From contig NC_071330.1 in assembly GCF_010183535.1 (NCBI RefSeq), forward strand, positions 15,667,717-15,731,716: a stretch of DNA of 64,000 bases. Reading direction: 5' to 3'. The first letter of the stretch is position 1. Each line of letters opens with the position of its first letter. Positions 2,281 to 48,880 of the stretch are shown piece by piece. The notes beneath the pieces are model-generated. The model saw nothing but the letters and a program-made list of their open reading frames with translations. It made no database searches and was not told the origin of the DNA. Both the position numbers and the translations under genes were made by a program. This DNA is from Caenorhabditis remanei. Lineage: Eukaryota; Nematoda; Chromadorea; Rhabditida; Rhabditidae.

Positions 2281-3640
2281 AAAAAAGAAAAAGGACCAGT
2301 TGGAGTACTGTGAAAGGGTCTTCGGCCTCTTGGTCCCTTCTTATTCTATCGCCCGAGTCTCCGTCACTCTTGTGGGACGTGCTACATGCGTGGGGCCACT
2401 TGAGTAAGAGGGACGAGGGAGGAAAAGGCACGCGGTGCCACGCCTCACAAGAATTACATCTTCTATTCAGTTCCATAGAAGGACGGAGGGAGCCAGCCAG
2501 GGTTGGGAAATTCCGGGCAAATAAAATTTTTTTTTTTTAATTCCGCACAGTCTCCCAGACTCCGAGTAAGAACTGCAAGGAAATTTTTGATCTACCCTCA
2601 TGAAATGAAAAATTTGAGAAATTAGCAGGTCTAAAGCGTTATTACTTTAATTTTTAGCGTAAATCTCAAGGTCAGAAATAATAAAGTTTCAGTTTTAGAA
2701 TTATTCAGAAATCATTATCCACTCATTCAACCCAAAAAATCCTGGTTTCATTTATTTTTTCAGGTCGAAATCGCAATTTTTCATTTTGATTTTGAAAAAA
2801 TCTACGGGATTTGTTCATTTCTCAATATTATCCTACGAATGATATCTCAAAACGTGCTCCGAAGATTTGTCCACATTTCTGTAGGACGGTTTTTCAATTT
2901 GCTCATTAGTTTTCGAGAAATCGATCAAATTCCGAATTTCTTTCAATTCTTTGTTATTTTCTCGAAAACTAATGAACAAATTAAAAAACCGTCCTACAGA
3001 AATGTGGACAAATCTTCGGAGCACGTTTTGAGATATCATTCGTTGGATAATATTGAGAAATGAACAAATCCCGTAGATTTTTTCGAAATCAAAATGAAAA
3101 ATTGCGATTTCGACCTGAAATAATATCTGAAACAAGGATTTTTTGAATTAAATAGTTGAATAATGCTCTCAGAATAATTCTAAACCTGAACTTTTCTTAC
3201 TTCTGACCTTGAGCTTTACGCTAAAAATTAAAGTAATAACGCTTTAGACCTGCTAATTTCTCAAATTTTTCGTTTCATGATGGTAGATCAAAAATTTCCT
3301 TGCAGTTCTTACTCGGAGTCTGGGAGACTGTGTTCCGGGAAAATTTTTCAGCCGGCCCGGCCCGTAATTTCCCAACCCTGGAGCCAGCCCATCTGGAGCT
3401 CTCTCCGCCTTCCTTAATAAACACATTCGACTGTTAACCATTGTTTTCTGTATGTTAGACGGAAGGAGCAGGCAAAGACTTTTCTCCGTTTACATGAAGG
3501 TTCCCACCTTGTGAGAACTCGAGCCTTTATCTTTATATAAAGGTTCACGGGTCTCACTAGTTCGGGAAATTGGTCATTTGCCACTGCAGAGCAACATCGC
3601 TCCACTCTGCAGGTTGATCAATCCTTGTTCTAGTTGGAAT
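2281..3640. mobile_element. Unidentified insertion into the Helitron, carrying a hAT element
   Basis: Sequence that interrupts the Helitron coding region between its N-terminal and helicase parts. It is itself interrupted by the palindromic hAT-type element at 2498-3380. It holds an AATAAA near 3418 and a TATATAAA-like palindrome near 3533, features also seen in LTRs, but no second LTR or ends were found. Class unknown. Confidence 0.35.
2498..3380. mobile_element. Foldback hAT-type element (8-bp TSD)
   Basis: Both ends carry the inverted repeat CAGGGTTGGGAAATTncGGG and are flanked by the 8-bp direct repeat GAGCCAGC (2490-2497 and 3381-3388), the hAT signature. Nearly the whole 883 bp is one long inverted repeat: the sequence after 2548 (CAGTCTCCCAGACTCCGAG) returns in reverse complement before 3330, and the centre around 2840-3060 folds on itself. 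The short ORFs in both directions here are products of the palindrome. No transposase is present, so it is non-autonomous. Confidence 0.85.
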
Positions 3641-25654: not shown

Positions 25655-26053
25655 TAGGGCTCGAAATGGGACGAGTTGGGATGTCCCGTGTCCCGTCCTG
25701 GATTGTCATAAAACGGTTAAAAATCAGTGGTGGGCGGGGAGTGAAATTAGTGACTCTCCCCGTGGCGGCAGCGGCCACAGCGCGGGGGGAAGAGATCGCG
25801 AGAGAGCGCGCCCCACCATTGCCGACAGCGAGAGACGCAGACATTTCTCCTCCCCCCGTGGATTTTGGAGTGAAGCTCAGCTTCACTCGCGCCCACCACT
25901 GTTAAAAATGAACCAATATTCTTGAAACTTTGGAAATCGCGTCCCTCTCCAGCTACGTCTTCGGAATCCGTAAACGTTTGACCACTCTCCGACAAAAATG
26001 GACTGTTTTCCAAGATGACCGGAAAAATGTGGGACGCCCCATTTCGAGCGCTA
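25655..26053. mobile_element. hAT-type MITE (8-bp TSD), outer
   Basis: The inverted ends are TAGGGCTCGAAATGGGACG and TAGCGCTCGAAATGGGGCG, flanked by the direct repeat GTGCATTG (25647-25654 and 26054-26061). It holds a second MITE at 25725-25901. It lies just upstream of the gene on 22828-25505 and could affect its promoter. Confidence 0.8.
25725..25901. mobile_element. hAT-type MITE (8-bp TSD), nested
   Basis: Ends CAGTGGTGGGCGnG and reverse complement, flanked by TTAAAAAT (25717-25724 and 25902-25909). At 177 bp it is much more GC-rich than the surroundings. Inserted inside the MITE 25655-26053, so it is the younger of the two. Confidence 0.85.
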
Positions 26054-32063: not shown

Positions 32064-32807
32064 GTGCTGGTTGCGGTTTCTTTGGCGTCTCGGCTAGAAG
32101 GCTACTGTTCGCAGTGCTTTAAGAACACGCTCAAACGTCAACAAGATGCAGCCAGGCTTACCTCCCCTGTTGTCTCCCCTTCATCAATGGCGGCCGCCAC
32201 CTTCTCTGCCCTCAAATCTGACCCCTCAAGTCTGGAACAGAGTTGAGCGGAATTCCGCCTTCCGCTTTCCGCCTTTCGCTTTCCGCCACTTTTTTCTTTC
32301 CGCCTTCCGCTTTCCGCTTTCCGCCGAAATTTTTTTTATTCCGCCTTCCGCCTTCCGCTTTCCGCCAAAAATTTTTCTATTTCCGCTTTCCGCCTTCCGC
32401 CTTCCGCTATTTTATGATTTTTTCCGCCTTCCGCCTAGAAGATATCAGATTGATAAATATCTCCAATTTACTGATATTTTTGACGTTTTTTTGCAGCAAG
32501 ACTATCAGTTTTTACCGAAAAAACAAAATTTAACCATTTTAAGGGCTTTTTACAACAAAATAAGGCCAAAATCGTCTTCTTAAAATCGAAATTGTATTCC
32601 GCGTTCCGCCATTTGCTCTTTTTTTCATTCCGCTTTCCGCCTTCCGCCTTCCGCCATTTCAAAAATCGCATTCCGCTCAACTCTGGTCTGGAAATTTGCA
32701 CAAAAGCACAGGATTGCAAAACGCAAGGTCGCTTAAACGCGCTCCGTCGCTCAGCGGTTGGCACGGTGCCAAAAACTGACTTGGCTGCGTGCCAAGTTCA
32801 AGTTTAG
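32064..32807 (+). pseudogene. Cys-containing open frame interrupted by a hAT MITE
   Basis: Left of the MITE the frame reads RLEGYCSQCFKNTLKRQQDA, then SSMAAATFSALKSDPSSLE. Right of it, in the matching frame, it continues ICTKAQDCKTQGRLNALRR. Removing the MITE and one 8-bp TSD copy joins the two parts in frame. CX2C and a later CX6C-like pair hint at a metal-binding fold. I do not recognise the family; it may come from a transposon. The frame ends soon after, at the repeat shared with 47.8-48.0 kb. Confidence 0.4.
32238..32685. mobile_element. hAT-type MITE with TTCCGC-repeat interior
   Basis: Ends CAGAGTTGAGCGGAATnCG and reverse complement, flanked by GTCTGGAA (32230-32237, 32686-32693). The interior is a mosaic of TTCCGC/CTTTCCGCC units, dense near both ends, with an AT-rich centre. 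A broken single end of the same family sits at 51389-51424 in intron 1 of acidic gene A. Confidence 0.9.
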
Positions 32808-33066
32808 CGTGTGTTTATCGTATATTTTGATGAAAAACGCGACGCACACGCATCGCGACTCGGTCGGTAATTTCAAAACTTTTCGTTGCGGACCTTACGC
32901 CTTGCACCCCTGTGCAAAAGCAGCCGTGAGTGCATCCGATGCGACGGAGAAGATGGATTGTGAAGAGATTCTCAATGTGACTGATGATACGGCGATGATG
33001 GTTGCCGAAAGCACTGCGCCCACGACAATTGACGGTCCACGCGTTGCAATGTCACGTTCCAAGTGA
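32758..33066 (+). other. Open frame, uncertain
   Basis: The second half (VSASDATEKMDCEEILNVTD and on) has a normal amino-acid mix and could be an exon. The first half lies in the repeat shared with 47800-47960. It stops at 33066, where homology to the acidic-gene first exon starts on the other strand. Status unclear. Confidence 0.2.
32775..32925 (+). repeat. Dispersed repeat, also at 47800-47960 (inverted)
   Basis: ACTTGGCTGcGTGCCAAgTT, AAGTTTAGCGTGTGTTTnTC and CGACTCGGyCGGTAA recur in reverse complement at 47800-47960, followed in both by TTGCGGAnCTTACG and CACCCCTGTG. About 150 bp shared, 15 kb apart. Nature unknown. Confidence 0.7.
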
Positions 33067-33370
33067 TCTCCACGTTATGGAATAGCATCTTGACTTTCTT
33101 TGTTCATTGAATACGCTGAAATTATTTTCAATTCAACTTACTCTATCATCAATATTTCGAATGCATAAACTCAAATTACCGTTCAAATTTGTGACGGAAT
33201 TATTCGTCAAGTGTGCTCTAAGGATGACATTAAAATAGTTAGAATAGCGAAGGCTCGTCGTCGGCGTCTCTCATTTTGCAATGCTGTTTTTCGTTTTCTG
33301 GCCAAGGCTATCGTTAGGGCGCATTTGTTGGCTACCCCTTGGAACAATACTTATTAAAGGGGGGCACCGG

Positions 33371-33663
33371 TATTCCGAAGCCGAGATTGTTTGATATGAA
33401 TCGACTCAGAATTTTGTAGAAAAGAGAAAAGTCTCTTAGAGTCAGGTACGAAAATTAGTCTAAAACGAGTTATGAGGTTTCAAAGTGTCAAAAAATAGCG
33501 CCTCGCCGTGAAAATCAACGTTGTTTTTTTTCCCCCTTTTTTGACACTTTGAAACCTCATAACTCGTTTTAGATTAATTTTCGGACCTGGCTCCAAGAGA
33601 ATTTTCTCTTTTCCGCAAAATTATGAGTCGATTCATATCAAACAATCTCGATTTTTGGAATAC
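33371..33663. mobile_element. Hairpin MITE
   Basis: ATTCCgAAnnCGAGATTGTT..GATATGAATCGACTCA on the left returns reversed on the right, and AAACGAGTTATGAGGTTTCA with AAGTGTCAAAAAA forms the inner stem. About 130-bp arms around a short GC-rich centre. It lies downstream of F-box-like copy F2. Confidence 0.7.
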
Positions 33664-33975
33664 CTATATCTCCTTTTAAGAAAAACCAGACGATAACATA
33701 AACGAAAAAAGGAATAAAGGTATTTAGGAACATTAAACAGCAATTCATGAAGTACTTTATTGATTATTTAATCAAGAAATGAAACAATTTCAACAACGCA
33801 ATATAAACTGCAGTAAAAACACTATTATAACGGTATATTATATTACAGTTCCCGTTTAAACACAGTTTTCACGGTATATGACAAGCGAAGTAGTTCTAGT
33901 TCAGCCATTGAAAATAGACAAAGTCAGAATATAAAGGTTGTGACATAAAAAAATCGTTCACCAGATGTGAAAATT

Positions 33976-35624
33976 TCAATTGTAAAAATGTCCAACAAAA
34001 GAATTGGGATATTCCTGTAACAGTGCTTTAATAAACATATCTTCCAACTCTTTCTCCTTGATATACACATCCAAATTAAAATTGAATTGATTGAAAGTAT
34101 CTTTCACTTGAAACCGTCTTCCAACCCATTTATTGTCAAGGAATACTTCTGGACCCTGTGCATCAATGAACGGTGAAGACTTCTTAGAACAGTGTAATCG
34201 GTTCTCTTGTAGAACATATCCCGAAGCGATTCCCAACAATTCTTCCCTATACGTATACCTATTGAGCTTTTTGACAATTCCTGATTGCACAAAAAACTTG
34301 ATGTCTAAACTCAAATTCTGATGTTGTTCCATAGTGACCACTTGCAATATTGTTGACATTTTCTTCTCAATATCCTTGTTGGCTATAGCATACCAGTGTG
34401 ACAGATCTATCATTATTCTATCCGTTGGGAACATTCTTCTGATATTCGGAATGAAATTGTCGTATCCTGCCGGAGGTTTCGTTTCTGCAGGGAGGTTCCC
34501 CAACCCTTTTACACAATGTTGTGAATAGGACAAACTCACTTCGACATGGCTGAATTTCAAATCTGAAAATTATAATTTGAAACAAGTTAGAGCTTACAGT
34601 AATACCTGAATGCTTAGTTTCCCAATATGGATCATTTAATCTGACTCGAGTGAAATAGTCATACCGTAGCCATTCGACACTGCACATCCCTTCACTCGTG
34701 AAATATATCATATTGAGTTTTATCGATTTTACACTCCATTTCCTTAGAATGATATCTATAACTTCTCGTGGCATATGACGATGGTCATACTTAGGATCTG
34801 TCCCTTCATCCGGGAGTACTCTGGACTCACTGATCCATATAGCAAGTTTATCACAAGAGATGGTCGAGAGAATAGTTTTATCCAGTTCTTTGAAACATTC
34901 TTCCTTGTTTTTTGACTTAGAGATACAGTACTCTGCAATGTCTTCGAATAGTTTATCAGTCACATGCAGTTTCTTGTAGTTCTTTGAATAAGTCATAGTT
35001 TGTAGTGTACTGAATCGCAATGGACCATATTCTATACACTTCTTGGCAATATTAAAACACTTTTCACATCCGTCGCAGATTTCCTCCAGTCCAATCACGG
35101 TTTGGATGTTTGTACCTGGAAGGTAGAAAGTGAATATGAACATTTCTCAGTTTTTAAATGTCAACTCACCATTACTTCCAATCAGTTGAGAATGGATGAT
35201 ATCGTGAAGTCTACGCTTGAATTCATCTTCCAACTGGCACAACCTTCTTGTTGTAATCTTCTCAACTTTGGCACCAACTAGAGTATTTAGAAAACTGGAA
35301 ACATGATTATAAGTTAGAAGAATCTATCAAATCTTACATGAAGTATCCGAGAACATCGTGAATATTGATTTTTCGATAATTGATATAGATGAAATTTGTC
35401 GATCTTGTTTTATTTTCTGTGTTGTAAGCGTACTCAATCTTCATTGTTTGATGATTTATTCTGATTAACCGTAAAAAAGTGTTATTTATTGATTTATTCA
35501 CCAATCTAATATCCAAATTCTTCCTGAAGTCATCAGAGAGATAACTGAGAATGTTTTCAAGAATATGTTGGTTGGTGAATACTTTTGAATAGAGTATTTC
35601 AGATACAGAGTTCTTGACAGACAT
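33976..35624 (-). CDS. F-box-like family protein, copy F2
   Basis: Exons 35338-35624, 35170-35294, 34606-35115 and 33976-34562 give 502 aa, starting MSVKNSVSEILYSKVFTN. The domain layout is as in F1: F-box-like segment in exon 1, the FLNTLVGAKVEKITTRRL block in exon 2, Cys cluster CDGCEKCFNIAKKC and the RFSTLQTMTYSKNYKKLHV hallmark in exon 3, and a C-terminal domain ending YPNSFVGHFYN in exon 4. Exon 2 is 125 nt and exon 4 is 587 nt, the same as in F1, F5 and F6. The promoter block (35699-35787) holds TAATTA and GTGGGAAA. AATAAA (-) is near 33752. Upstream is the end of the GIY-YIG array (35964). Intact. Confidence 0.75.
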
Positions 35625-35698
35625 TTTGACAGAGAAGAAGAAGATCAATACAGAACGAGAGAAAGAAAGGAGGAGGTATAAAGCGATGAGGGATTGCC

Positions 35699-35787
35699 AA
35701 CAATCGATTCTATCTCAACAACGCCAATTTCCCACAGCACAGATGGTTATTCGAATGACCCTTTCACACCCTAATTAGTCTCATCCT
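35699..35787 (-). promoter_or_regulatory. Conserved upstream block of the F-box-like family (F2 copy)
   Basis: On the minus strand it reads GACTAATTAGGGTGTGAAAG, then TCATTCGAATAACCATCTGT, then GTGGGAAATTGGC, GTTGAGAT and AATCGATTGT. The same order is found upstream of all six family genes at a similar distance to the ATG. TAATTA is a homeodomain-type core, CATCTG an E-box, and GTGGGAA matches the CSL/LAG-1 core (background knowledge). Use of these sites is not shown. Confidence 0.55.
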
Positions 35788-35963
35788 CCATCATCACCCA
35801 GTTACAATTCTTACTGTATATTTACTCTGGGTGCATTGTTCACAACAGTGAATTCAAAAAAAAAAGAGAAAATTACATAAAAGGAAAATAAGAATTGAAA
35901 GACCGTGAGTACTAGAGGAGGGAATGAAAATACACTTGTAACGGGTAAAACATGGTTAATTTA

Positions 35964-36057
35964 TCAATTCTTTCGCGGTTTCTTGGGACGGAGAATGTCG
36001 GGGAGTCCATTCCGGTGGATGAAAGTGAATCCGTCGATTCTCAGTGTCGACCCCGCC
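35964..36057 (-). CDS. Terminal exon of the GIY-YIG array
   Basis: After an ATAATTCCAG acceptor the frame AGSTLRIDGFTFIHRNGLPD..KKPRKN ends in TGA. It needs two bases carried over, as supplied by the GTWLLD-AG exon type. The actual preceding exon (unit 5) arrives in another phase because of a deletion, so the join gives an early stop (GRGRH). The exon may be reached from an alternative splice or be non-functional. Confidence 0.4.
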
Positions 36058-36131
36058 CTGGAATTATAATTTTTCGCATTTTTGCTAGAAAATAGTCAAG
36101 AATTCTCAAAAAACTGCAGAATATTCCTTAC

Positions 36132-36629
36132 CTATCCAGCAACCATGTTCCATATTCGGTTTTGGTGGTCGAATCCCATAATCTCGTGAATCCGTGGAAT
36201 TCGCCCTTCTCACGCTTCTTTGATCAGCATCTGACACTCCGTGAGCTGAAAATTATATAAACACATTTCTTGTTGTCTTGTTTTCAAAAACTTACAGAAT
36301 TGAATCTTCGGAACTCCGAGCCCACTTGACCAGATATCAACAATCGTTTGAAGTTTCTTGTTCATTTTCTGATCGATAGGTGCTTTGTCCATCTCATTTC
36401 TGTTGGAGCCCTTTCCAATGTAGAATACTGATTTGACGAATGTTTCGAATGTCAACGTTTCAATATTGACGCCAGAAACACGAAGATCGATGAGGACATA
36501 GCAAAAAGCCATGTACCCCCTTGTATCGAAGTTGTTTCGAACAGCATTCTCACAACGAAGAGCACGCTCGAGGGAATCCCGAGAGAAGTGTCCGTTGCGG
36601 ATGACGGCATTCAGTTCTGGAGAGAATAT
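36132..36629 (-). pseudogene. GIY-YIG array unit 5, catalytic residues lost
   Basis: Exons 36296-36629 and 36132-36245. It reads in frame from unit 4 (LLDR|YSPELNAVIRNGHF), then MAFCYVLIDLRVSGVNIE and SVFYIGKGSNRNEMDKA. YIG-like YIGKG is kept, but the RPLDHF motif (Arg and His) is replaced by RNEMDKA. The following exon fuses the start of the EAFVRE exon with the GTW exon after a deletion, removing the Glu and Asn motifs and shifting the frame. Probably not an active nuclease domain. Confidence 0.6.
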
Positions 36630-36733
36630 CTGAAAATTGGAATTATTTTGAGGTAAACTGTGAATTCATTTACTGTATAAAGAGAGCAGAGTCTAGAGAG
36701 TGTAAAAATTCAAAATTTATCCGTGGTCTATAC

Positions 36734-37300
36734 CTATCCAGCAACCATGTTCCATACTCGGTTTTGGTGGTCGAATCCCACGATCTCGTGAATCCGTGGA
36801 ATACACCTTTCTGTAAAAATAAATTTAAAAAAATCCAAATTTTTATCTGAAAATTACCTTTCTATTTGTCAAGTTGACCACTTGGAGTGCCTCGATCATG
36901 CAGGCTTCTCTTACGAATGCATCTTTATCCGACACTCCATGAGCTGAAAATTATAAAAACTCATTTCTTGTTGTCTTGCTTTCAAAAACTTACAAATTTC
37001 ATGCTTCGGAATACCGAAGCCTGCTTTCCATATGTCTCCAATCCTCCGATACTTCTCGGTTAGCTTTTGCTCATTTGGAGGCTTCTCCAGCTCCTTTCTC
37101 GCATCCCGGAAATGGTCCAATGGCCTATTTTTCGTTCCTTTCCCAACATAGAAAACATATTGAACGAAAGGGCGGAGTCTAGAGATGTGAAAAATAGTCA
37201 AGTCATTCTCAGATAACTTCATATTGTTCCTTACTTGTGGAGCTCGAATGATCGGAATTCTTCTTTCGTGTTCATATCCCACGATTTCGTGGATCCCTCC
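36734..37300 (-). CDS. GIY-YIG array unit 4 (ANKLE1/LEM-3-like)
   Basis: Exons 36994-37300, 36858-36943 and 36734-36810, all in frame with units 3 and 5. The first exon starts with a post-nuclease segment (GGIHEIVGYEHERRIPIIRA), then lacks the first strand (FCYxLLD) and goes straight to VQYVFYVGKGTKNRPLDHFR. The next exon keeps the Glu motif DAFVREACMIEALQ and the Asn in NLTNRK; the third is KGVFHGFTRSWDS..GTWLLD. In ANKLE1/LEM-3 nucleases the first strand supplies a conserved Tyr, so this unit may be inactive or structural. Confidence 0.55.
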
Positions 37301-37350
37301 CTGTAAAAAAAATTTATAGAAATCCAAGTTTTTAAATAGATAATTTAGAC

Positions 37351-37767
37351 CTTCTTGTTCTTCAAATTCTTTCTTTTGATTGCTTCAATCATTGACCCTT
37401 CTCTCACGAAGGCCTCTTCATTGGATATGCCGTGGGCTGAAAATTACACATTTTTTGTTGTCCTCTTTTCAAAAACTTACCAAACTCATGTTTCGGGATG
37501 CCATATCCAGCATCCCAAAAGTCCGCTATTTTTTGAAGCTTGATGCAAAGCTCCTGTTCGTCTGCTGGCAGCATTCTTTCGTTCCGAGCTTGAATAAAAT
37601 GAGCCATTGATCGGTTCTTCGACCCCTTTCCTACGTAGAATACGGCATGAACAAACCGATCGAACGTAACCATCTCAATGTCGTTACCCAGTAACAATGG
37701 ATCAAATAGAAGGTAGCAGTAGGCATTGTAACCCTTCCTCTTTCGTAGATCCGTGGAACTCACCGCC
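37351..37767 (-). CDS. GIY-YIG array unit 3 (ANKLE1/LEM-3-like)
   Basis: Exons 37481-37767 and 37351-37436. It reads AYCYLLFDPLLLGNDIEMVT, VFYVGKGSKNRSMAHF, GYGIPKHEFG, then SNEEAFVREGSMIEAIKRKN. The Tyr strand, YVGKG, Arg/His region (RSMAHF, with a P replaced) and Glu motif are present. The start of its first exon is a fusion of a GGEFHGSTK-like tail exon with the nuclease exon in another frame, so joining from unit 2 would shift the frame. Joining onward to unit 4 is in frame (phase 0). Confidence 0.5.
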
Positions 37768-37814
37768 CTGTAAAAAGCAATGTATAAAAGTCCAAGTTTT
37801 TTAAAGATAATTAC

Positions 37815-38320
37815 TTTTTTGTTACTCAAATTGTCCTTTTTAATAGCTTGAATCATGCTTCCTTCTCTCACGAATGCCTCATGATTGGAAATTCCGTGAG
37901 CTGAAAACAATATCACATTTTTTGTTGTCTTGTTTTCAAAAACTTATCGAATTCATGCTTCGGAATGCCGTATCCTCTATCCCACAAATCAGCTATTTTC
38001 AGGAACTTCACGCCGAGCTTCTGCTGATTTGCTGGTTTCTTCCTTTCGTTCCGAGCATCTTTGAAATGGTCCAATGGCCTATTTTTCGTTCCTTTCACAA
38101 CATAGAAAACGGATTTTACGAACTTCTCGAACGTAACCGTCTCTATGTTGGTTCCCAGAATTCGTGGATCCAAGAGCATGTAACAGAAGCAATTGTATCT
38201 GAATCCAGGTCCATAGAAGTTCTGTCGAACCTCTTTGTCGGAGTGGAGAGCGCGAGCAGTGATACCAGGAGGAATGAAGCCCTTGCTGAGAATCTCTTCA
38301 AGAGCAAGGGACATTTTGCT
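37815..38320 (-). pseudogene. GIY-YIG array unit 2, donor site mutated
   Basis: Exon 1 reads MSLALEEILSKGFIPPG (ATG at 38314), then YNCFCYMLLDPRILGTNIE, VFYVVKGTKNRPLDHFKDA, and GYGIPKHEFDK. YVGKG is changed to YVVKG. The donor that is GTAAGT in the other units is ATAAGT here, so the exon would read through to a stop after KTRQQKM. The following exon (37815-37900; SNHEAFVREGSMIQAIKKDN) is intact. Whether a short protein from 38314 to 37913 is made is open. Confidence 0.5.
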
Positions 38321-38400
38321 CTGAAAAAAGTTGATTTCAGATTACTTTCAGCCAATTTTGATTGATTTTAAACCATTTTCAGCTCCAGGATCTTTCTCAC

Positions 38401-39026
38401 CTATCCAGCAACCATGTTCCATACTCCGTTTTGGTGGTCAAAGTCCATTTTTTGGTGAAACCGTGGAATCCATCTTTCTGTAAAAATAAATTTAAAAAAA
38501 TCCAAATTTTTATCTGAAAATTACCATTTTATTTGTCAAGTTAGTCACTTGAATGGTCTCTATCATGCAGGCTTCTCGTACGAATGCCTCATGATCCGAC
38601 GCTCCATGATCTGAAAATTATATAAACTCATTTCTTGTTGTCTTGCTTTCAAAAACTTACAAATTTCATGCTTCGGAATACCGAAGCCTGCTTTCCATAT
38701 GTCTCCAATCCTCCGATACTTCTCGCTCAAGTCTTGCTCATTTGGAGGCTTCTCCAGCTCCTTTCTCGCATCCCGGAAATGGTCGAGTGGCCTGCCACCC
38801 GTACCTTTCCCAACATAGAAGACGGATTTTACAAATTTCTCGAACGTAACCGTCTCTATGTTGGTTCCTAGAATTCGAGGATCTAAAAGCATGTAACAGA
38901 AGCAATTGTATCCGAATCCAGGTCCATAGAACTTCTTTCGAACGTCTTTTTCGGACTGGAGAGCGCGAGCAGCGAAATCGGGAGGAATGTAGCCATTGAG
39001 AAGGATTTCATCAAGTTGTGTAGTGC
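38401..39026 (-). CDS. GIY-YIG array unit 1 (ANKLE1/LEM-3-like), best preserved
   Basis: Exons about 39026-38661, 38525-38610 and 38401-38477. Motifs in order: LDEILLNGYIPPDFAARAL, YNCFCYMLLDPRILGTNIE (first strand with Tyr), VFYVGKGTGGRPLDHFRDAR (YIG-like and Arg/His), GFGIPKHEI, DHEAFVREACMIETIQ (catalytic Glu), NLTNK (Asn), then FHGFTKKWTLTTKTEYGTWL. This matches the ANKLE1/LEM-3 branch of GIY-YIG nucleases, which in C. elegans acts on chromatin bridges (family knowledge). No ankyrin or LEM domain is visible. The 5' end abuts AT-rich block C, where the acceptor TTTTCAG of unit 5 is TTTTCTG, so its start is unknown. The 3' exon continues to a stop (LLDR-TGA) if unspliced. Confidence 0.6.
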
Positions 39027-39039
39027 AGAAAATTGGAAT

Positions 39040-40572
39040 TATGTTAAGGAAAACAAGAAAAAAGCAAGAATTTACAAAAGATTCGAACAAATAATTGACT
39101 GAATGCGTTTTTTTTTCTGTCGAAAACTGAGCTTTCAGCGCAAAAATGATTTTTACTGTACGGAAACTTGACAAAACTCCAAAAATCAACAGAAGCAGTA
39201 TTAAAAACCGAGAAAAACGACGAAAACTGCTTGAATAACATCAGAATTACGATTTTTGTTTCGGAAATCACAGTTTTGTGAAGAAAAGCAAAAAAATGTG
39301 GGAAAATAGCTGAAATATTCCAAAAATTTGGCCACAAAGACGAAAAAATAGCAGAATTAGCTCGAAACCTAGATTTAATGCTGAAAATCTGCAAAGCTAA
39401 TAATTTTTGTATGAGAAACAAGGTAAAATGACTATTCGGAGATAAAACGCTTGCAGATTACTATAATTTCGCTAGTAAAACTTGAAAATGTGCAGAAATT
39501 GATTTTTCTATGCTTTTCGGCAAAAAATTATATAACGGTATAACGAATTGCAAAAATAAAGAAAAATAGCTCAAAACTGTGAAAATCGGCTGAATTTTGT
39601 GGTTTTTACACTAAAAACTCGACGATTCGCGGGTGAAAACTGAGAAAATGAGCAATTTTTCAAAGAAATATCAGAAAACAGCCTGAAACTGCAAAAAATA
39701 GGTATTTGCGACAGAAAATCCAGAAAAACCAGCCAAAAAACAAAATTTGAAAGAGAAAATCTGATTTTTCAGCTCAAAACTTAATTTTTGTTGTCAAAAC
39801 ATTTTTTCGTCAAACAATTTCAGCTAAGACGTCACTGAGAGTCGAAAATTGCTATTACAAGCAGTAAAACCCGGTTTTTGAACTGAAAATATGAGAAATT
39901 CTAGAGGAAACGAGGAAACAACGACACAGTGGCTTAAAAACTACAAAAAACCTAGTTTTCCAGCAAAAACTCGCCATTTCGCTGATGAAAACTGATAAAT
40001 TTTAACTAAGACGTCACTGAAAGTCGAAAACTGTTATCGCGAGCCGAAAAAACCCGATTTTTGTGATGAAAATATGAAAACTTATGTGAAAAACGAGACA
40101 AATGACATCGAATAACCAAAAAACGGACAAAAATTGAGTTTTGAAGTAAAAAAATTCTAAAAACGAGTTCAAATCGAAAAAAAAACAGATTTTTCAGCTA
40201 AAAAAACAATTTTTGACGCCAAAATTTCATTTATTCAGGAAAATTGTCCTAAAAAGTGAAAAAAACTAATAAAACTAAAAGGTTCGAAAGTTGAAAATTG
40301 AAAATATTATCCAAAAAACGAGGAAAAATAAGGATTTCGCAAAAAAATCGCATAATAATTGACAAAAAATGATTTTCGGGATACTGTAGTTGACAAATTG
40401 TGCGAATTGCGTACAATGCATTTGAATTGACGCGCAAACTTAATTATTGAGTTTTTTATTGGAAAAAAGTGAGTAACGTTTATTTTCACTGGAATACGGA
40501 TGAAAAATGGTGAAGAAATATATAAAAATTCGAATTTTTAATTTATTTTTTCAATTTTTTTTTATAAGTGAA
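39040..40572. repeat. AT-rich block C of a three-copy set
   Basis: No gene. Collinear with blocks A and B, for example CGACGATTCGCGGGTGAAAA, ACAGCCTGAAACTGCAAAAA, and near the right end GGGATACTGTAGTTGACAA and TTGAATTGACGCGCAAACTT. Here it joins GIY-YIG unit 1 on one side and the last exon of acidic gene B on the other, as block B joins acidic gene C. Confidence 0.6.
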
Positions 40573-41978
40573 TCAGCATGGGTTTTTTTCTCCGATTTCT
40601 CCGAGTTCCCCTGCTTCTTCCTCATCCACTCCGAATTCTTCGATGTTTCCGATTTGCTGAAAATGAGAAAAAATAGATGAGTGTCTAGGCCTGAGCCGGG
40701 ACTCAACAGCGAAATAAAGCCCCGACCCGAAAGCGCGAGAAATTGGCGCAAAAGTTTCAAAATTCAAATTTTTGACATTTTTTGAATTTTTCCCCAAAAA
40801 AAGACAAAATTTGGACCAAAAAACCTCAAAACGTTCTAATTTTAAATTTACTCTTTGTAACAGGGCCGAGCCTCTACAGGTATGGATGAGTAGAAGTCTT
40901 GCCTGATTAAAATACTCCAGAATCTTGCTCCGCCTCTTTAACCATCAATGCCGCGAATCTTCTCCTAAATAGACACGGCTCCTTTTCCCCTTTTCGATCG
41001 ATAGGCGGCATAGGCTCCGCCCCTTTTCTATAGCTGCCCCAATGTAGGCCGAAACTCCGTACGTTTTGAAAAGGAAGAAATTTTTAGAAGGGAATGCACC
41101 GACTCTGAGCCTTTCTATATAACAATACGAATAAAACTCACTAAGAAGATGAGATGGATGTAGCCGTTCCCATCCAGGGTGAACAGTTTTTGACCACCCT
41201 AAAACTTCGATGTGATGCTATGTCAACTATTTGAATAAACTCACGATTGGGTTCACTCTCATATAACCATCATTATCCGCGAAGATGTGGAATGGTTCCT
41301 CAAATTTTTGTAGGTAAGTTAAAAAGAGAGTGAGTGAGAGAGAATCACCTCAATCACCATGGCACCTAGATCATCTTCTACGGGTTCCAACGGAACATCT
41401 TCATCACGTTCGGCACGTTCGACCAGTTCCAACCAGGGACGAGCGGCAATGCCGTTGCCGCGTTGCCGAATTGCCGAAATTGCCGACTTTTTATAATGCA
41501 TTGCCGTTGCCGGGTTGCCGACTTTTTTTTCCGACAATGTTTTCAGCAGTTTTTTTTCTAATTCTTCTCAAAATTTCAAGCTGAATTCGACAAAAGTATT
41601 ACAAAAATCGAAAAATTTTGCTTCTATCTGAAAGAGATTACACCATTTTTTGATAAAATGGGAAAATACTCTCATTTATTCAAAGCAACTGTCACTGGAA
41701 AAATAAAGTGTACTTTGCTCGCATTTTTCTTTCCCGACTTATGAAAAATCCTTGTTATTACATGTTGCCGAAAGTTGCCGAAAATTGCCGAAAATTGCCG
41801 GTTTTTTAATTCGGCAATTGCCGGTTTTTTAATTCGGCAATTGCCGGTTTTTTAATTCGGCAATTGCCGGATTGCCGGGTTGCCGAAATTTTCCGTTGCC
41901 GCTCGTCCCTGGTTCCAACGGAACATCTTGGACTTGTTCTAGGCCTGGTGGAAGAGCATCTTGGTTTTCTTCGTTCAT
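40573..41978 (-). pseudogene. Acidic-protein gene, copy B, exon 1 split by a hAT MITE
   Basis: Exons (-): 41349-41978 including the MITE 41434-41911, 41245-41298, 41142-41198, 40573-40656. Exon 1 begins MNEENQDALPPGLEQVQDVP; without the MITE and one TSD copy the frame runs on to LVERAERDEDVPLEPVEDDL with no stop, so the gene was intact when hit. The 54- and 57-nt exons (EPFHIFADNDGYMRVNPI, GGQKLFTLDGNGYIHLIFL) match in length and phase those of copy A. The last exon is QIGNIEEFGVDEEEAGELGE..NPC, stop. Unlike copy A it has no minisatellite exon. Role unknown; very acidic and probably non-globular. Confidence 0.65.
41434..41911. mobile_element. hAT-type MITE with TTGCCG-repeat interior
   Basis: Ends CAGGGACGAGCGGCAA and exact reverse complement, with a perfect 8-bp TSD GTTCCAAC (41426-41433, 41912-41919). 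Both flanks of the 478-bp element are rows of TTGCCG/GTTGCCGAAATTGCC units. It disrupts exon 1 of acidic gene B. Confidence 0.95.
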
Positions 41979-42193
41979 TGAGTACGCTGAAATTTTATCA
42001 ATTCAACTTAATCGTTCATCAATTTTTTGAATGCGCAAACTCATACTGCCCCTCATATTTCTAGCTGAATTATTCGAAAAGTGTGCCACAAGGATGAAAT
42101 TAAAATAGTTAGAATAGCACTGAAAACAAAGAGACGCAGAACTAATGCTTCGCTTGTCGTCGGCGTCTTTCACTTTTCAATGCAGTTTTTCGT

Positions 42194-44137
42194 GGCAAAC
42201 ACTAACTTGCTAGTAGATCATTTGCTATTTTCCCGTTTGCTATTGAGTCTCACTTGCTATAGGGGATCATTTGCTATATTTGGCTCACTTGCTATAAAAT
42301 TCCCAAATTTCAGAGTCTCATTTGCTATTAAATGTCTCACTTGCTATTTCAAATCTCACTTGCTATTTTTCGACTCATTTGCTAGAATTATTTGACTCAT
42401 TTGCTATTTTCTGGCAGACTATTCCGTTTTCCCTACTAGGGAAGGATCATGAGTCGAGATGGAGTTACATGTCGAGATATATATCACTATAACTGAAATT
42501 TTGCGCTGATTTCAAATATGTATTCCAATTTTGCAGAACGATCCTGTGAAAAAAGTTATTCAGGTTTTTGTGAGTTTTCAGTACTAAAAATGGAAACTTT
42601 GAAGTCACGTAAATCGTCCAAAATGTGAATTCAGAGGGAATAAAATGAACCAGAATACGTTTCAAACAACGGGGAACATTTTCAGTCATTTTTTGGGGAA
42701 ATTTTTTTTTCGACGAAATTTTGAAGTTTTTGGTGGCCAATGATCGACCACGATCGAAAATTCGACCAAAATTTTTTTCGAATTTTTTTCTCAAAAACTG
42801 TTGTTGTGTGATTATAAGTGTTTCAAGTAAGAGTTTACACTACTTCTTTTATCAGATAAGCTTCTAAATGGCTTGAAAACATGGTTAGAAGTGAGGTGAA
42901 TTGATCAGAGGATATAAGAGACAATGTCTCGCTCAAGCCACCAGGCCATGTTACACATGCGCCAAGTTGATCCGTTTCGGCTGATTTTTTGATATGTTAG
43001 TACCCTAGGAATTCTAAGAATTTTATACCATACCCCATTAGGCTCCGCCCTCTTTGACCTACCGAAACTCATTTGCTAGAAAAACTGTTCCCTCCCTCAC
43101 ATTGTTCCCCTTCTTTGTTTCCCCCTTTATCTTCATTGTTACCCCTCCTTTACTGTTGTTGGCTTTCTAGAATGAATTTGCATTGTTGTTAAGAGAAAAT
43201 CTAGCAAACCGATCTAACTAGGAAAGGATCCCGAGTCAAGATGAACTTCCGGGTCATGACCTATATGGTTGGAAAGCTTGAACTTGGAAACTTCCAAAAC
43301 TGTTTTCCAATTTTGCAGAACACCTCTAGGAATGGAGAAAAATGAGCTTAAAGTTTGAGCACTGACCCCCTCTTCTTAACCATAGGAAACCTAAAAATCC
43401 GAAATAAAGGGTCATTCCTCTTGTCTTTTCCTTGTGTTCACCTAGTTTTCAGCGGTGAGATGGCCAAGGGGTTAACAGCGAGGGCCAGTAATCAAGCATC
43501 TTACTTGAAACACTTATAATCACACAACAACAGTTTTTGAGAAAAAAATTCGAAAAAAATTTTGGTCGAATTTTCGATCGTGGTCGATCATTGGCCACCA
43601 AAAACTTCAAAATTTCGTCGAAAAAAAAATTTCCCCAAAAAATGACTGAAAATGTTCCCCGTTGTTTGAAACGTATTCTGGTTCATTTTATTCCCTCTGA
43701 ATTCACATTTTGGACGATTTACGTGACTTCAAAGTTTCCATTTTTAGTACTGAAAACTCACAAAAACCTGAATAACTTTTTTCACAGGATCGTTCTGCAA
43801 AATTGGAATACATATTTGAAATCAGCGCAAAATTTCAGTTATAGTGATATATATCTCGACATGTAACTCCATCTCGACTCATGATCCTTCCCTAGTAGGG
43901 AAAACGGAATAGTCTGCCAGAAAATAGCAAATGAGTCAAATAATTCTAGCAAATGAGTCGAAAAATAGCAAGTGAGATTTGAAATAGCAAGTGAGACATT
44001 TAATAGCAAATGAGACTCTGAAATTTGGGAATTTTATAGCAAGTGAGCCAAATATAGCAAATGATCCCCTATAGCAAGTGAGACTCAATAGCAAACGGGA
44101 AAATAGCAAATGATCTACTAGCAAGTGAGTGTTTGCC
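42194..44137. mobile_element. Palindromic MULE-like element, 9-bp TSD
   Basis: Ends GGCAAACACT and reverse complement with the 9-bp direct repeat GTTTTTCGT (42185-42193, 44138-44146). A 9-bp TSD plus very long TIRs points to the Mutator superfamily (inference). Each arm is about 640 bp and nearly identical to the other. The outer 240 bp carry about ten CAYTTGCTAT units; then a second TIR, CTAGGGAAGGATCATGAGTC, starts (42437 / 43891), so an inner element may be embedded. The 650-bp centre holds an old relative of that TIR (43216) and a tRNA-like block (43450-43490). Paralogue 33280-33330 shows the empty site. Confidence 0.75.
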
Positions 44138-44184
44138 GTTTTTCGTCTTATGGTCTTATGGTCATCGTTAGGGCGCATTTGTTA

Positions 44185-44284
44185 TGGGCCTGTTCTGGAG
44201 GTAGCAAGAACAGCAAAAAACGATTGTTTACTACTAGACAAAATAGTTTTTTTGATTTTTTTTGCTACCTCCGGAATAGGCCCA
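44185..44284. mobile_element. 100-bp hairpin MITE (TTA flanks)
   Basis: TGGGCCTGTTCTGGAGGTAG and the reverse complement TGGGCCTATTCCGGAGGTAG enclose a short AT-rich loop, flanked by TTA on both sides. The homologous site near 33325 lacks it. A half copy with GGACCTATTCTGGAGGTAGC lies at 15330-15350. Confidence 0.75.
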
Positions 44285-44685
44285 TTAGCACCTTTTTGGA
44301 ACGATACTTATTCAGAAAAATCACACGCTAACATTTTTCAAAAGGCAGAATTGTAATCATTCCTAAATGTAAAATGCCCGCAAGATTTTAAAGAAATGGA
44401 AAAGAACGGTGACCAAAATTGGCGCACAGAAGAAAAACACAAATAAAAGTATTAAGGAACATCAAACAGCAATTCATAGAATACTTTATTGATTATTGAA
44501 GCAAACAATAAAATACAATACAATTTCAACAACACAATATAAGCTACCGTGAAAACTGTATTATAGCGTTATGTTCTAAGACAGATTCGTTATACTACAG
44601 TTTCGCGGTATATAACAAGAAAAGTCAGGATAAAGGGAGTGTGACATAGAAAAAATCAAAGAATCATTCTTCATATGTGAATATT

Positions 44686-46299
44686 TTAATTGTAAAAGAG
44701 ACCAACAAATGAATTGGGATATTCCTGTAGCAGTTTTTCATTAAACACATCTTCCAACTCCTTTTCCTTGATATAAACATCCAGATTTAAAATGAATTGA
44801 TTGAAAGTATCCTCAACTTGAAATCTTCTTCCAATCCACTTCTCCGAATCAAATGCATCCGGACCTAGTTTCACTTCAAACGGTAGACATTTCTTATAAC
44901 ATTGCAAACAATGTTTTCTGAAATTATATTTTGGAGCAATTCCAAACAATTCTTCTTTTTTTGTCTCCTCATTGAGTTTTTTGACAATTGCTGATTCCAC
45001 AAAAAATTTGATATCCACAATCAAATTCTGAGGTTGTTCCATAGAGACCACGTACAATATAGTCGACATCTTCTTCTCGATATCATCATTGGCTATACAA
45101 CACCAATGAGACAGATCCATCGATATTTTGTCAGTTGGGAATAATCTTCTGATATTTGGAATGAAGTTGGCATATCCTCTCGGAGATTTGTATTTTGGAT
45201 AACGAACGCCTAGATCTCTCACACAATAGATCGAATCCGACATTTCCACATCGACATTAGTGAACTTTAGATCTGGAGACTTCTGAGTTTTGAAATATGG
45301 ATCATTTAGTCTGACTCGAGTGAAATAGTTATACTGTAACCAGTCGACACTGCACATCCCTTCATTCGTGAAATATATCATATTGAGTTGAATCGATTTT
45401 ACACTCCATTTCCTCAGAATCATATCTATAACTTCTCGTGGCATATGACGATGGTCATACTCAAGACCTTCCACTTCATCCGGGAAAACTCTGGTCTCAT
45501 TGATCCAAATAGAAAGTGTATCACAAGAAATTACTGGAAGAATAGTTTTATCCAGTTCTTTGAAACATTCTTCTTTGTTTTTTGACTTAGAGATGCAGTA
45601 CTCTGCAATGTCTTCGAATAGTTTATCAGTTACATGCAGTTTCTTGTAGTTCTTTGAATAAGTCATAGTTTGTAGTGTACTGAATCTTAATGGACCATAC
45701 TCGAGACACTTCTTGGCAATGTTAGAACACTTCACACACCCATCACATGCTTCCTCCAAGCCTATTAAAGATTCGATATGAGTTCCTGAAAAGCATATGG
45801 AATGACTTTTTCAAGTTTTTCAAGAAAACATACCGTTGCACCCGATTAGTTGAGAATGAATGAGGTCGTGAAGTCTGAGCATGAATTCATTTTTCAACAT
45901 CCATAACCTTCTTGTTGTAATCTTCTCAATTTTTGCACCAACTGCAGTATTTAGAAAACTAGAAAGAGATTCGTTAACTAAAAAATTATAATAATATAAC
46001 AAATCTTACATGAAGTATCCGAGAACATCCTGAGTTTTGACTTTTCGATAATTGATATAAATAAAATCCTTTGAAGTTTTCTCCCGTTCTTTCCGCTCAC
46101 AAACATACTCAATCTTCATTTTTCGATGATTTCTTCTAATTAGCCGTAGAAATGTATTATTTATTGATTTATTTACCAATCTGACATCCAAATTCTTCTT
46201 GAAGTCATCAGAAAGATAACTGAGAATGTTTTCAAGAAGATGTTGATTTGTGAATACTTTGGAATAAAGTATTTCAGTTACAGAGTTCATGACAGACAT
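44686..46299 (-). CDS. F-box-like family protein, copy F3
   Basis: Exons 46010-46299, 45834-45958 and 44686-45785 give 504 aa, starting MSVMNSVTEILYSKVFTN. The third intron of F1/F2/F5/F6 is absent: the frame reads straight through FKTQKSPDLKFTNVDVEM. The C-terminal half differs from the other four copies and matches F4 (RYPKYKSPRGYANFIPNIRR, CLQCYKKCLPFEVKLGPDAF). The Cys cluster is CDGCVKCSNIAKKC. The promoter block is at about 46353-46441 (CTGGGAAAC here). AATAAA (-) near 44482. Member of the inverted duplication; acidic gene B lies downstream. Intact. Confidence 0.75.
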
Positions 46300-46804
46300 T
46301 TTGGCAGAGAAAATACGGACGACTGAGGGAGTGAGAGTGAAGGAAGACTACACACAGTCGATGTTATCTCATCAATGCCAGTTTCCCAGAGTACAGATGG
46401 ATATTTGACTGACCCTTTCACACCCTAATTACTCTCATTCTCCTCCATCTCCCAGTGGTAATTCATATTGTATATTTGCTCTGGGTGGATAATCATTGTT
46501 CTCTTTCGTTTGTCTTCCGATTGGTTTGTATGATGCAAAAATTGAAAAAAACATTAAATGAAACAAAATAAAAAAGAAGAAAAAACATGGTTAGATACAG
46601 TTTTTTAATGAAGCCAAAAATTTGTTGTGGTGGTGAATAGCCTCATAATGAAATAGGTCGCATCGGATAACCTCCACTTGGGTCAGAGTCATTTCCTTGG
46701 TGAGTTCATACACGTTGACATTTCTGGAATAAAAAACACATTGAGAAAAGTAGAAAAAGGTTTCATAAATATATTAATTTTCAACGTGAGCTTTCCTCCC
46801 CATT

Positions 46805-47056
46805 TTAAACAAACAGAAAAAAGGGAAAGGTCAATCTTACCATTTGCCACATAAAATTAGTTATTTCGAAGAAAACGAACAGTGCGAACACGACAAGTGA
46901 TCCTAATAAAAGTATGTTTCTCACTTCCTCCCTGTTTGCGCGGATTAGCTTGTACGTAGTATAGTAATTGGGTAAAACAAATTGAATACTCTGAGCTCTA
47001 AGCTTATTTGGAGAACAGAGCCAAAACAAATCTTGTATAGGTTCGGGTCTCGCCAC
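46805..47056 (-). CDS. Small putative membrane protein, uncertain
   Basis: In the spacer between the two halves of the inverted duplication. The open frame MARPEPIQDLFWLCSPNKLR continues to YKLIRANREEVRNILL and one strong hydrophobic segment (LLLGSLVVFALFVFFEI). A donor-like ATG|GTAAGA follows WQM. A possible next exon (46594-46726, -) reads NVYELTKEMTLTQVEVIRCD, but its phase does not fit the simple join. Function unknown; may be a degraded gene. Confidence 0.3.
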   Translation of the reverse strand: MARPEPIQDLFWLCSPNKLRAQSIQFVLPNYYTTYKLIRANREEVRNILLLGSLVVFALFVFFEITNFMWQMVRLTFPFFLFV

Positions 47057-47248
47057 GTACCCATTAGGTTATTGTAGGCTGCGTTCTCTTGCTGAAAAAC
47101 TAAAGTGCGCGCACGAGAATACTCTGAATCGATTTCTACTCAAAAACGGTGAAAATGAAACTTTTTTTCCGAATGGGGTTATGTTAACCGTGGGTCACGT
47201 AAATTCGAAAATAGAACTTTCAAAGATTCGAAAAATAGAACTTTCAAG

Positions 47249-47659
47249 CAGACTTGTCACGGGCCGGGCCGGGCCGGGCCAAAATCAGGAAAAATCTCGG
47301 CCCGGCCCGGCCCGGCCCGGCCCGTAGCCCGGCCCGGCCCGCTCGGCCCGTTTTGAAACAGTTTTTGAAACATTTTTGAAAATTTGATGTTTTTTTGGAA
47401 AATTTTGAAAATTTTTGAAATTTTTTGAAAAAAGTATAGTTTTCGAGTAAACATTTAAAATTGAATCAAAATGTGAATATGTATGATAATTTAAGCATTT
47501 TTACTCTTTTTTTTCGAAAAATTTCAAAAAAAAATTGGTAAAAATGGGTACCCATTTTTGAATCCGGGCCGACCGGGCCGGGCCAAGAGGAATTTCGGCC
47601 CGGCCCGGCCCGGTCAAGAAAAATCTCGGCCCGGGCCGGCCCGATTTTTGACAAGTCTG
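47249..47659. mobile_element. hAT-type MITE with GGCCCG-repeat interior
   Basis: Ends CAGACTTGTCA and reverse complement, TSD CTTTCAAG (47241-47248, 47660-47667). Arrays of GGGCC/GGCCCGGCCC stand just inside both ends around an AT-rich centre. Located in the spacer of the inverted duplication. Confidence 0.9.
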
Positions 47660-47799
47660 CTTTCAAGACCGTGTCTGATCGATTCTTAATCTCGCTTTCT
47701 GTCTACCATTAGACAACTTCTATGAAACAAATCGTAATTTGCCGGAACTTTTTGGGTCAGCCGCTACCGTACGGGTAGTTTTTTTTTCAATCCTAGAAG

Positions 47800-47960
47800 G
47801 AATCCGCCATGTAGGTGCTCACAGGGGTGCGAGACGTAAGATCCGCAACAAAAATTGTTGAATTTACCGGCCGAGTCGCGTTGCGTGCGCGTAGCGGTTT
47901 TCATTAAAAGATACGAGAAACACACGCTAAACTTGAATTTGGCACTCAGCCAAGTCTCAA
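47800..47960 (-). repeat. Inverted copy of the repeat at 32775-32925
   Basis: Reads, on the minus strand, ACTTGGCTGAGTGCCAAATT, then AAGTTTAGCGTGTGTTTCTC and CGACTCGGCCGGTAAATT. A sequence to its right (48040-48130) is not shared. Confidence 0.7.
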
Positions 47961-48432
47961 AATTTAAAATCGGGAACAGTAGAAATGTGAATGGACTGAG
48001 ATCTGGATGATGTTTCCTGAATTCCTGTTCATCCCGTTCAAGGCTGTCGTACGGCCGGCCGCCGCTTTTTCTTGAAAATCTCAAACAGTCGCAGTCGGCC
48101 CAAAAAAATGCTGGCACTCGTGGGGGTCGAAGCCTGGTTGTCAAATTGATACCAAAAAGTTAAGAAGTATATAAACTTATGCTTCCCTTAGAATACCCAG
48201 AGGTGGGCGCCGGTTAGTTGACCTGATTTACCTATTCCATCCCATCCCATTTTTCACGGCTAACATCCAAAACGAGTCGAGGTTCCCAGATTGGTACTAC
48301 CCACGCACCAAAAATTACATGAGCGAACTGTTTGTGAATGTTTCTTTTCTTCTTTTTTTCATTTCTTTTTTGTTTCACTTTTTGATTCATACCAATCGGA
48401 AGACAAAACGAGAGAGAACAATGATTCTGCAC

Positions 48433-48828
48433 TAGGCTTGGTCGGAGTCGGAGAATCGGATACTCCAATTCTCCGATTCTCCGACTTTTTTCGGACAATT
48501 TCTCCGACTTCTTTTTTTCGGAGAAATAATCCGAAATTCTCCGAAAAAAAAGTCGGAGAATTTCGTAGAATACCGGAGACAACGACACTCCAAACTCTGT
48601 TTTTGTTGTATTTTTACTCGTAAAAGCTTTTAATGATGATTAAACATGTTTTAGAAAGGTGAATTCGGAAAAATACAACAGAAAATCCGTTTTAAAATCA
48701 TTTTTGGGAACATTTTTGGATTCTCCGAAATTATCCGAAATTCTCCGATTCTCCGAGAAAAAAAATCGGAGAAAATTTCGGATATCCGATTCTCCGAAAT
48801 TTTTTTTATTTTTCTCCGACCAAGCCTG
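48433..48828. mobile_element. hAT-type MITE with TCTCCGA-repeat interior
   Basis: Ends YAGGCTTGGTCGGAG and reverse complement, TSD TTCTGCAC (48425-48432, 48829-48836). The inside is made of ATTCTCCGA/GGAGAATCGGA units. It lies about 190 bp upstream of F-box-like copy F4; the homologous stretch upstream of F3 (46470-46505) lacks it, so it arrived after the inverted duplication. Confidence 0.9.
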
Positions 48829-48880
48829 TTCTGCACCCAGAGCAAATACACAATAAGGATTGGATTTGAATGATGGTGGA

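Follow-up and report, generated by a model that had tools for sequence, protein, structure and literature searches.

In the available text of PMC10368747, most hAT transposons are stated to have subterminal repeats, so the kind of feature described here is already known. In Hermes, from the house fly, the left-end repeats are bound by the BED domains of several protomers, and in the observed complex the BED domains leave the right-end repeats unbound. The same text gives the arrangement of these sites as an opposed first pair followed by antisense sites at the left end, and sense sites at the right end, where we take "sense" to mean reading inward from the tip, which is our own reading of the term. 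The available text of PMC3143072 reports that the transposase of the mosquito element Herves binds tetramers of the subterminal motif CGATTCAT, and cites Ac and Tag1 as elements with short transposase-binding repeats inside the tips. PMC2872659 was also considered as a precedent and set aside, as the text available concerns coral piggyBac MITEs and has no bearing on hAT arrays. A literature search of titles and abstract openings, mostly outside subscription journals, returned no report of the families described below, nor of dense arrays matched to the tips together with a switch of the motif throughout the arrays of a sister family.

Four array-bearing elements in the window and their copies

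The window, meaning the whole 64-kb stretch of Caenorhabditis remanei DNA that was analysed, was scanned for an 8-bp target site duplication (TSD) flanking inverted hAT-like tips, the criteria being a length of 80-1600 bp, pairing of 10 or more of 12 tip bases and no more than one TSD mismatch. hAT tips are of the CAG...CTG type, and the TSD consensus is NTNNNNAN. The scan identified six elements, and five shifted-TSD controls yielded 0, 0, 0, 1 and 0. Four of the six are hAT MITEs with arrays of one short motif in both ends. E1 (32238..32685, plus strand, 5' end left) carries TTCCGC arrays and the tip CAGAGTTGAGCGGAA, and is flanked by the exact 8-bp TSD GTCTGGAA at 32230-32237 and 32686-32693. 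E2 (41434..41911, plus strand, 5' end left) carries TTGCCG arrays, the tip CAGGGACGAGCGGCAA and the exact 8-bp TSD GTTCCAAC (41426-41433 and 41912-41919). E3 (47249..47659) lies on the minus strand with its 5' end on the right, and has GGCCCG arrays, the tip CAGACTTGTCA and the exact 8-bp TSD CTTTCAAG (47241-47248 and 47660-47667). E4 (48433..48828, plus strand) has TCTCCGA arrays, the tip (T/C)AGGCTTGGTCGGAG, in which T opens the left tip and C the right, and the exact 8-bp TSD TTCTGCAC (48425-48432 and 48829-48836); its 5' end was set as the left one by alignment to a sister element described below. All four TSDs fit the consensus, and tips of the CAG...CTG type are found at both ends of three of these elements and at one end of the fourth.

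Motifs were counted on both strands and compared with 1000 dinucleotide shuffles per element, the motifs themselves being taken from the sequence-only reading so that their choice was not blind. There are 26 TTCCGC sites in E1 (shuffle mean 1.27, maximum 6), 21 TTGCCG sites in E2 (0.73, maximum 4), 21 GGCCCG sites in E3 (1.00, maximum 5) and 13 TCTCCGA sites in E4 (0.25, maximum 3). Together with the exact TSDs and hAT-like tips, these counts far above the shuffles confirm what that earlier reading had described, namely four elements with 8-bp TSDs and motif arrays in both ends, and in all four the motif is indeed an extension of the terminal sequence. An AT-rich middle had also been claimed, and the G+C fractions by thirds agree for every element, weakly in E1 (0.50/0.35/0.41) and E4 (0.42/0.31/0.36) and more strongly in E2 (0.45/0.30/0.45) and E3 (0.63/0.18/0.55). 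The sites of E1 and E2 point mostly one way on one strand across both ends, and directions are mixed in E3 and E4.

Two further elements were noted in the window. The first (2498-3380, 883 bp, TSD GAGCCAGC) has the tip CAGGGTTGGGAAATTCCGGGC, which is also the tip of the hAT locus L076, along with few GGCCCG sites and an apparent long internal inverted repeat. The second (25655-26053, 399 bp, TSD GTGCATTG, tip TAGGGCTCGAAATGGGAC) has a GC-rich middle and a few GTCCC copies beside its left tip, with no array by the 6-mer tip-array test given below.

A first look at the genome assembly, of 130.47 Mb with six large contigs, returned 458 candidate copies for E1, 74 for E2, 1137 for E3 and 118 for E4, from which 40 per family were scored. 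Median lengths were 572 bp for E1 (n=27), 433 bp for E2 (n=7), 402 bp for E3 (n=23) and 493.5 bp for E4 (n=16), and all four are short, non-coding, multicopy and alike in size, as MITEs are. A looser scan for TSD and tip in loci L001-L124 (296,249 bases) gave 81 matches, the window's own four elements again included, of which 77 have an exact TSD; four shifted controls gave 13 matches when pooled. One E1-type copy (L031, 2634-2747) is 114 bp long with an exact 8-bp TSD, and consists of nearly nothing but its tips and 10 TTCCGC sites.

Larger relatives with transposase domains

A Pfam search of the genome returned 33 matches to the hAT dimerisation domain (PF05699). One of them lies in L069, where a 2446-bp element (292-2737) has E2 tips, E2 arrays and the TSD ATCATCAT. 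Searches of the stretches downstream of the other 32 matches, followed by tip searches, yielded three more elements, the sequence of which was read at the ends. These are an E1-type element of 2960 bp with the exact TSD TTGTGCAA (C4:24010289-24013248), an E3-type element of 2919 bp flanked by the 9-bp repeat CATCGGGAC instead of an 8-bp TSD (C4:4798998-4801916), and a 2678-bp sister of E4 with TTCCCGA motifs and the exact TSD GTGCCGTC (C6:19869044-19871721). Their open frames were listed and scanned against Pfam piecewise, giving PF05699 at E values of 1.1e-14, 1.2e-10 and 7.4e-13 in the E1-, E2- and E3-type elements and 2.7e-16 in the sister. A zf-BED domain was matched in the E1-type element (E 9e-8), with no Pfam match to it in the E2- and E3-type pieces scanned, and the E2-type transposase piece matched Hermes (E 1e-5).

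In local alignments the C-terminal transposase domains of the TTCCGC, TTGCCG and TTCCCGA elements share 38-42% identity with one another, and that of the GGCCCG element is 25-36% identical to these three. The distant transposases and the differing tips speak against a single source element for all four, which bears out the earlier contention that the four are not one family. The comparison supports E1 to E4 being MITEs of separate hAT families and not of one recent source. Matching the tips to autonomous hAT elements, a check named in the sequence-only reading, succeeded to the extent of a larger domain-bearing element for E1, E2 and E3, but reached only a sister for E4.

The closest tie is that of E2, which aligns with L069 in four blocks of 86-97% identity and retains a remnant of the transposase frame start (41658..41714, plus strand; MGKYSHLFKATVTGKIKCT compared with MGKYSHLFKSTVTGKLKCT in L069), with 16-17 of 19 codons identical or nearly so. 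This four-block alignment and the kept frame start show E2 to be an internal-deletion derivative of an L069-type element. E1 differs from its larger relative by one tip base, and E3 agrees with its own at approximately 70-78% outside the tip, so that neither of these larger elements would be the immediate parent. At C2:3619210-3622464 a pair of CAGGGTTGAGCGGAA tips in inverted orientation, separated by 3255 bp, marks a possible second larger E1-type element, by position only.

Among the best-scoring candidates of the genome searches, none was a TCTCCGA element with a transposase. One locus (L125, 20-3275; C5:14811419-14814674) has a 3256-bp element with exact E4 tips, arrays at both ends and the flanks AATGCGAT; it contains no open frame of transposase length (the longest listed, 140 aa, enters from the flank) and none of the 33 matches to the hAT dimerisation domain falls within it. 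Other repeats are present in its middle, runs with GGACGT among them. When the C-terminal domain of the sister was used as the query, one partial match reached 92% (contig C166), relatives lay at 32-52%, and numerous short remnants were also returned.

The association of arrays with hAT genes extends beyond these families. Downstream of 19 of the 33 domain matches, which include near-identical copies (L072/L073, L083/L084, L085/L088 and L086/L100/L101), a 6-mer is clustered more strongly than in any of 60 shuffles; downstream of the other 14 there is no such cluster. On reading, 14 of the 19 clusters have a clear tip, with none in L079, L081, L082, L083 and L084. Further types of tip plus array are ACTTCCG (L072, L007, L015, L022), CTTCCTT (L070) and TCGAAA (L091), and GGCCCG arrays also occur with other outer tips (L036, L076, L078). 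Across eight families, picked after inspection, the dominant array 5-mer, counted with the tip excluded, is present in the family's own tip in seven, the miss being L070; it is present in another family's tip in 5 of 56 cross pairings, and 6 of 40320 permutations reach seven matches. In a 6-mer version the leading array word lies in its own tip for 13 of 15 end sets, likewise picked after inspection, the exceptions being L076 and the window element at 25655. Separately, the cluster in L082 consists of CGATAA, and that in L081 is a tandem repeat containing AAAACGATCAGTGATCG.

Motif replacement between E4 and its sister

E4 and the TTCCCGA sister have the outer tip CAGGCTTGGTC in common, and their arrays are built on different motifs. 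Each of 21 E4 stretches (20 loci and the window copy) contains 10-26 CGGAGA and 0-1 CGGGAA, and each of three sister stretches (the two ends of the sister element and L126, a short sister copy truncated at 436 bases) contains 0 CGGAGA and 12-16 CGGGAA. No copy mixing the two motifs was found among these 21 E4 and three sister stretches. When E4 sites were aligned to the sister, nine at the 5' end to L124 and ten at the 3' end to L126, the E4 motif was kept in none of the 19; 11 are the exact sister motif, and eight are gap-shifted or otherwise altered. With motifs masked and tips removed, alignments of the same ends scored 122.5, 114.5 and 136.0, above the 86.0 and 87.0 of opposite ends, and unit-shuffled versions reached the same-end scores in 1, 6 and 0 cases per 500. 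As the spacers are AT-rich and simple, this makes site-by-site homology between E4 and its sister likely, not certain. Exact sister tips were found 11 times, with eight paired by position at 533-693 bp, one in the 2678-bp element and two unpaired, and seven of the eight pairs enclose a remnant of the transposase C-terminus.

This exchange of the motif across whole arrays suggests that the transposase co-evolved with the entire set of its sites. A broader account, which we put forward tentatively and as somewhat short of probable, is that hAT families build dense arrays of the site in their own tip and may split through replacement of that site throughout, with spacers and order kept, so that in E4 and its sister the transposase preference would have changed, the sites followed and cross-mobilisation ended. 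If this is true, at least a dozen sites per end have followed a change in the DNA preference of a transposase.

Proposed role of the arrays and comparison with described systems

Reading inward, the first site sits inside the tip, from base 10-17. In a set of 14 elements that includes related copies, and in which the 5' end was assigned by the transposase gene in the larger elements only and otherwise by likeness, the second site at the 5' end is opposed to the first in 10; in two E4 elements, the sister and L036, the opposed site is the third. At the 3' end the second site has the direction of the first in all 14. The purest case is E1, and in E3 and E4 directions become mixed further inward.

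We consider it probable that E1 to E4 are MITEs of separate hAT families whose arrays are subterminal docking sites for the BED fingers of each family's own multimeric transposase, and whose ends derive from larger hAT elements by internal deletion. The opposed site that follows the tip site at the 5' end forms a palindrome, and at the 3' end the sites continue in one direction; many fingers binding together could distinguish the two ends and join them, as published for Hermes. Where a transposase lineage changed its site preference, the tip site and the array sites would be expected to change along with it. From Hermes we infer the docking of transposase at the arrays, and we likewise infer that BED fingers do the binding, that these transposases act as multimers and mobilise the MITEs, and that co-evolution caused the switch. 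The Hermes right-end repeats, unbound by BED domains in the observed complex, call for caution regarding the 3' arrays here.

The arrays could instead be neutral, with slippage and gene conversion spreading copies of the inner tip that have no role in transposition. The units are tandem, as expected of slippage, and the number of sites does differ among copies (9-44 in E1, 6-29 in E3), but the orientation pattern is common to distant lineages, one plan is found in families with distant transposases, and the motif has been replaced on spacers shared by E4 and its sister, a replacement that block-wise homogenisation should have blurred. We regard neutral arrays as unlikely.

The sequence-only reading proposed that MITEs amplified the binding site after loss of the transposase gene and may owe their success to it. 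To compare site numbers, sites were counted in 300 bp at each end of one larger element per family, and in those MITE copies from among the top matches to the window elements that were recovered by the TSD scan. For TTCCGC the larger element has 42 sites and the MITEs a mean of 33.5 (n=27); for TTGCCG the numbers are 18 and 18.1 (range 17-21, n=7), and for GGCCCG 15 and 20.4 (n=23). E4 MITEs have a mean of 20.1 sites (range 9-25, n=16), with no larger partner for comparison. A modest excess in the MITEs is thus confined to GGCCCG, although arrays can grow locally, as a unit of approximately 24 bp is present three times in the window TTGCCG copy and once in the larger element. As the larger elements with TTCCGC and with TTGCCG have as many sites as their MITEs or more, and as several hAT elements with transposase domains already bear arrays at their ends, amplification within MITEs is unsupported as the cause of their success, and we consider that explanation highly unlikely. 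The related proposal of a repeated evolutionary route holds insofar as separate families are alike in plan, but a better reading is that hAT lineages, in which tips and arrays diverge together, passed these ends on. The arrays look like inherited docking sites of each element's own enzyme and not an invention of the miniature copies, which places the explanation with the parent elements instead of the MITEs. That the arrays bind a host protein for expression, chromatin or insertion preference is very improbable, even if GC-rich sites amid AT-rich spacers could draw host factors, as a shared host factor explains neither the match of each array to its family's own tip nor the difference in motif between sister families that share an outer tip.

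If the sites are docking sites for transposase, these families would be a natural record of an enzyme and many sites changing together and gaining mutual specificity, and E4 and its sister, as paired ends with the same spacers and a different motif, are suited to a direct test of that specificity.

Among described systems, Herves likewise repeats a single subterminal motif in each of its ends, and in Herves a tetramer suffices for binding; unlike the families here it has CGATTCAT at few sites, and the available text of PMC3143072 describes no switch in a sister family. Ac and Tag1, likened here by their description in the same text, also have short repeats inside the tips. The left end of Tol2, again likened by description (available text of PMC10368747), resembles the elements here in a perfect palindrome just inside the tip followed by an antisense site, and differs in its motif and site number. 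Hermes, as described in that same text, is alike in its short repeated sites near the tips, in an orientation grammar that is the same, and in the BED domain of its transposase, for which the counterpart here is the zf-BED match of the E1-type larger element only. Unlike Hermes, which has a loose 4-base motif with 17 and 14 sites per end, the elements described here carry dense runs of 6-7-base motifs that repeat the inner tip, with one different motif for each family.
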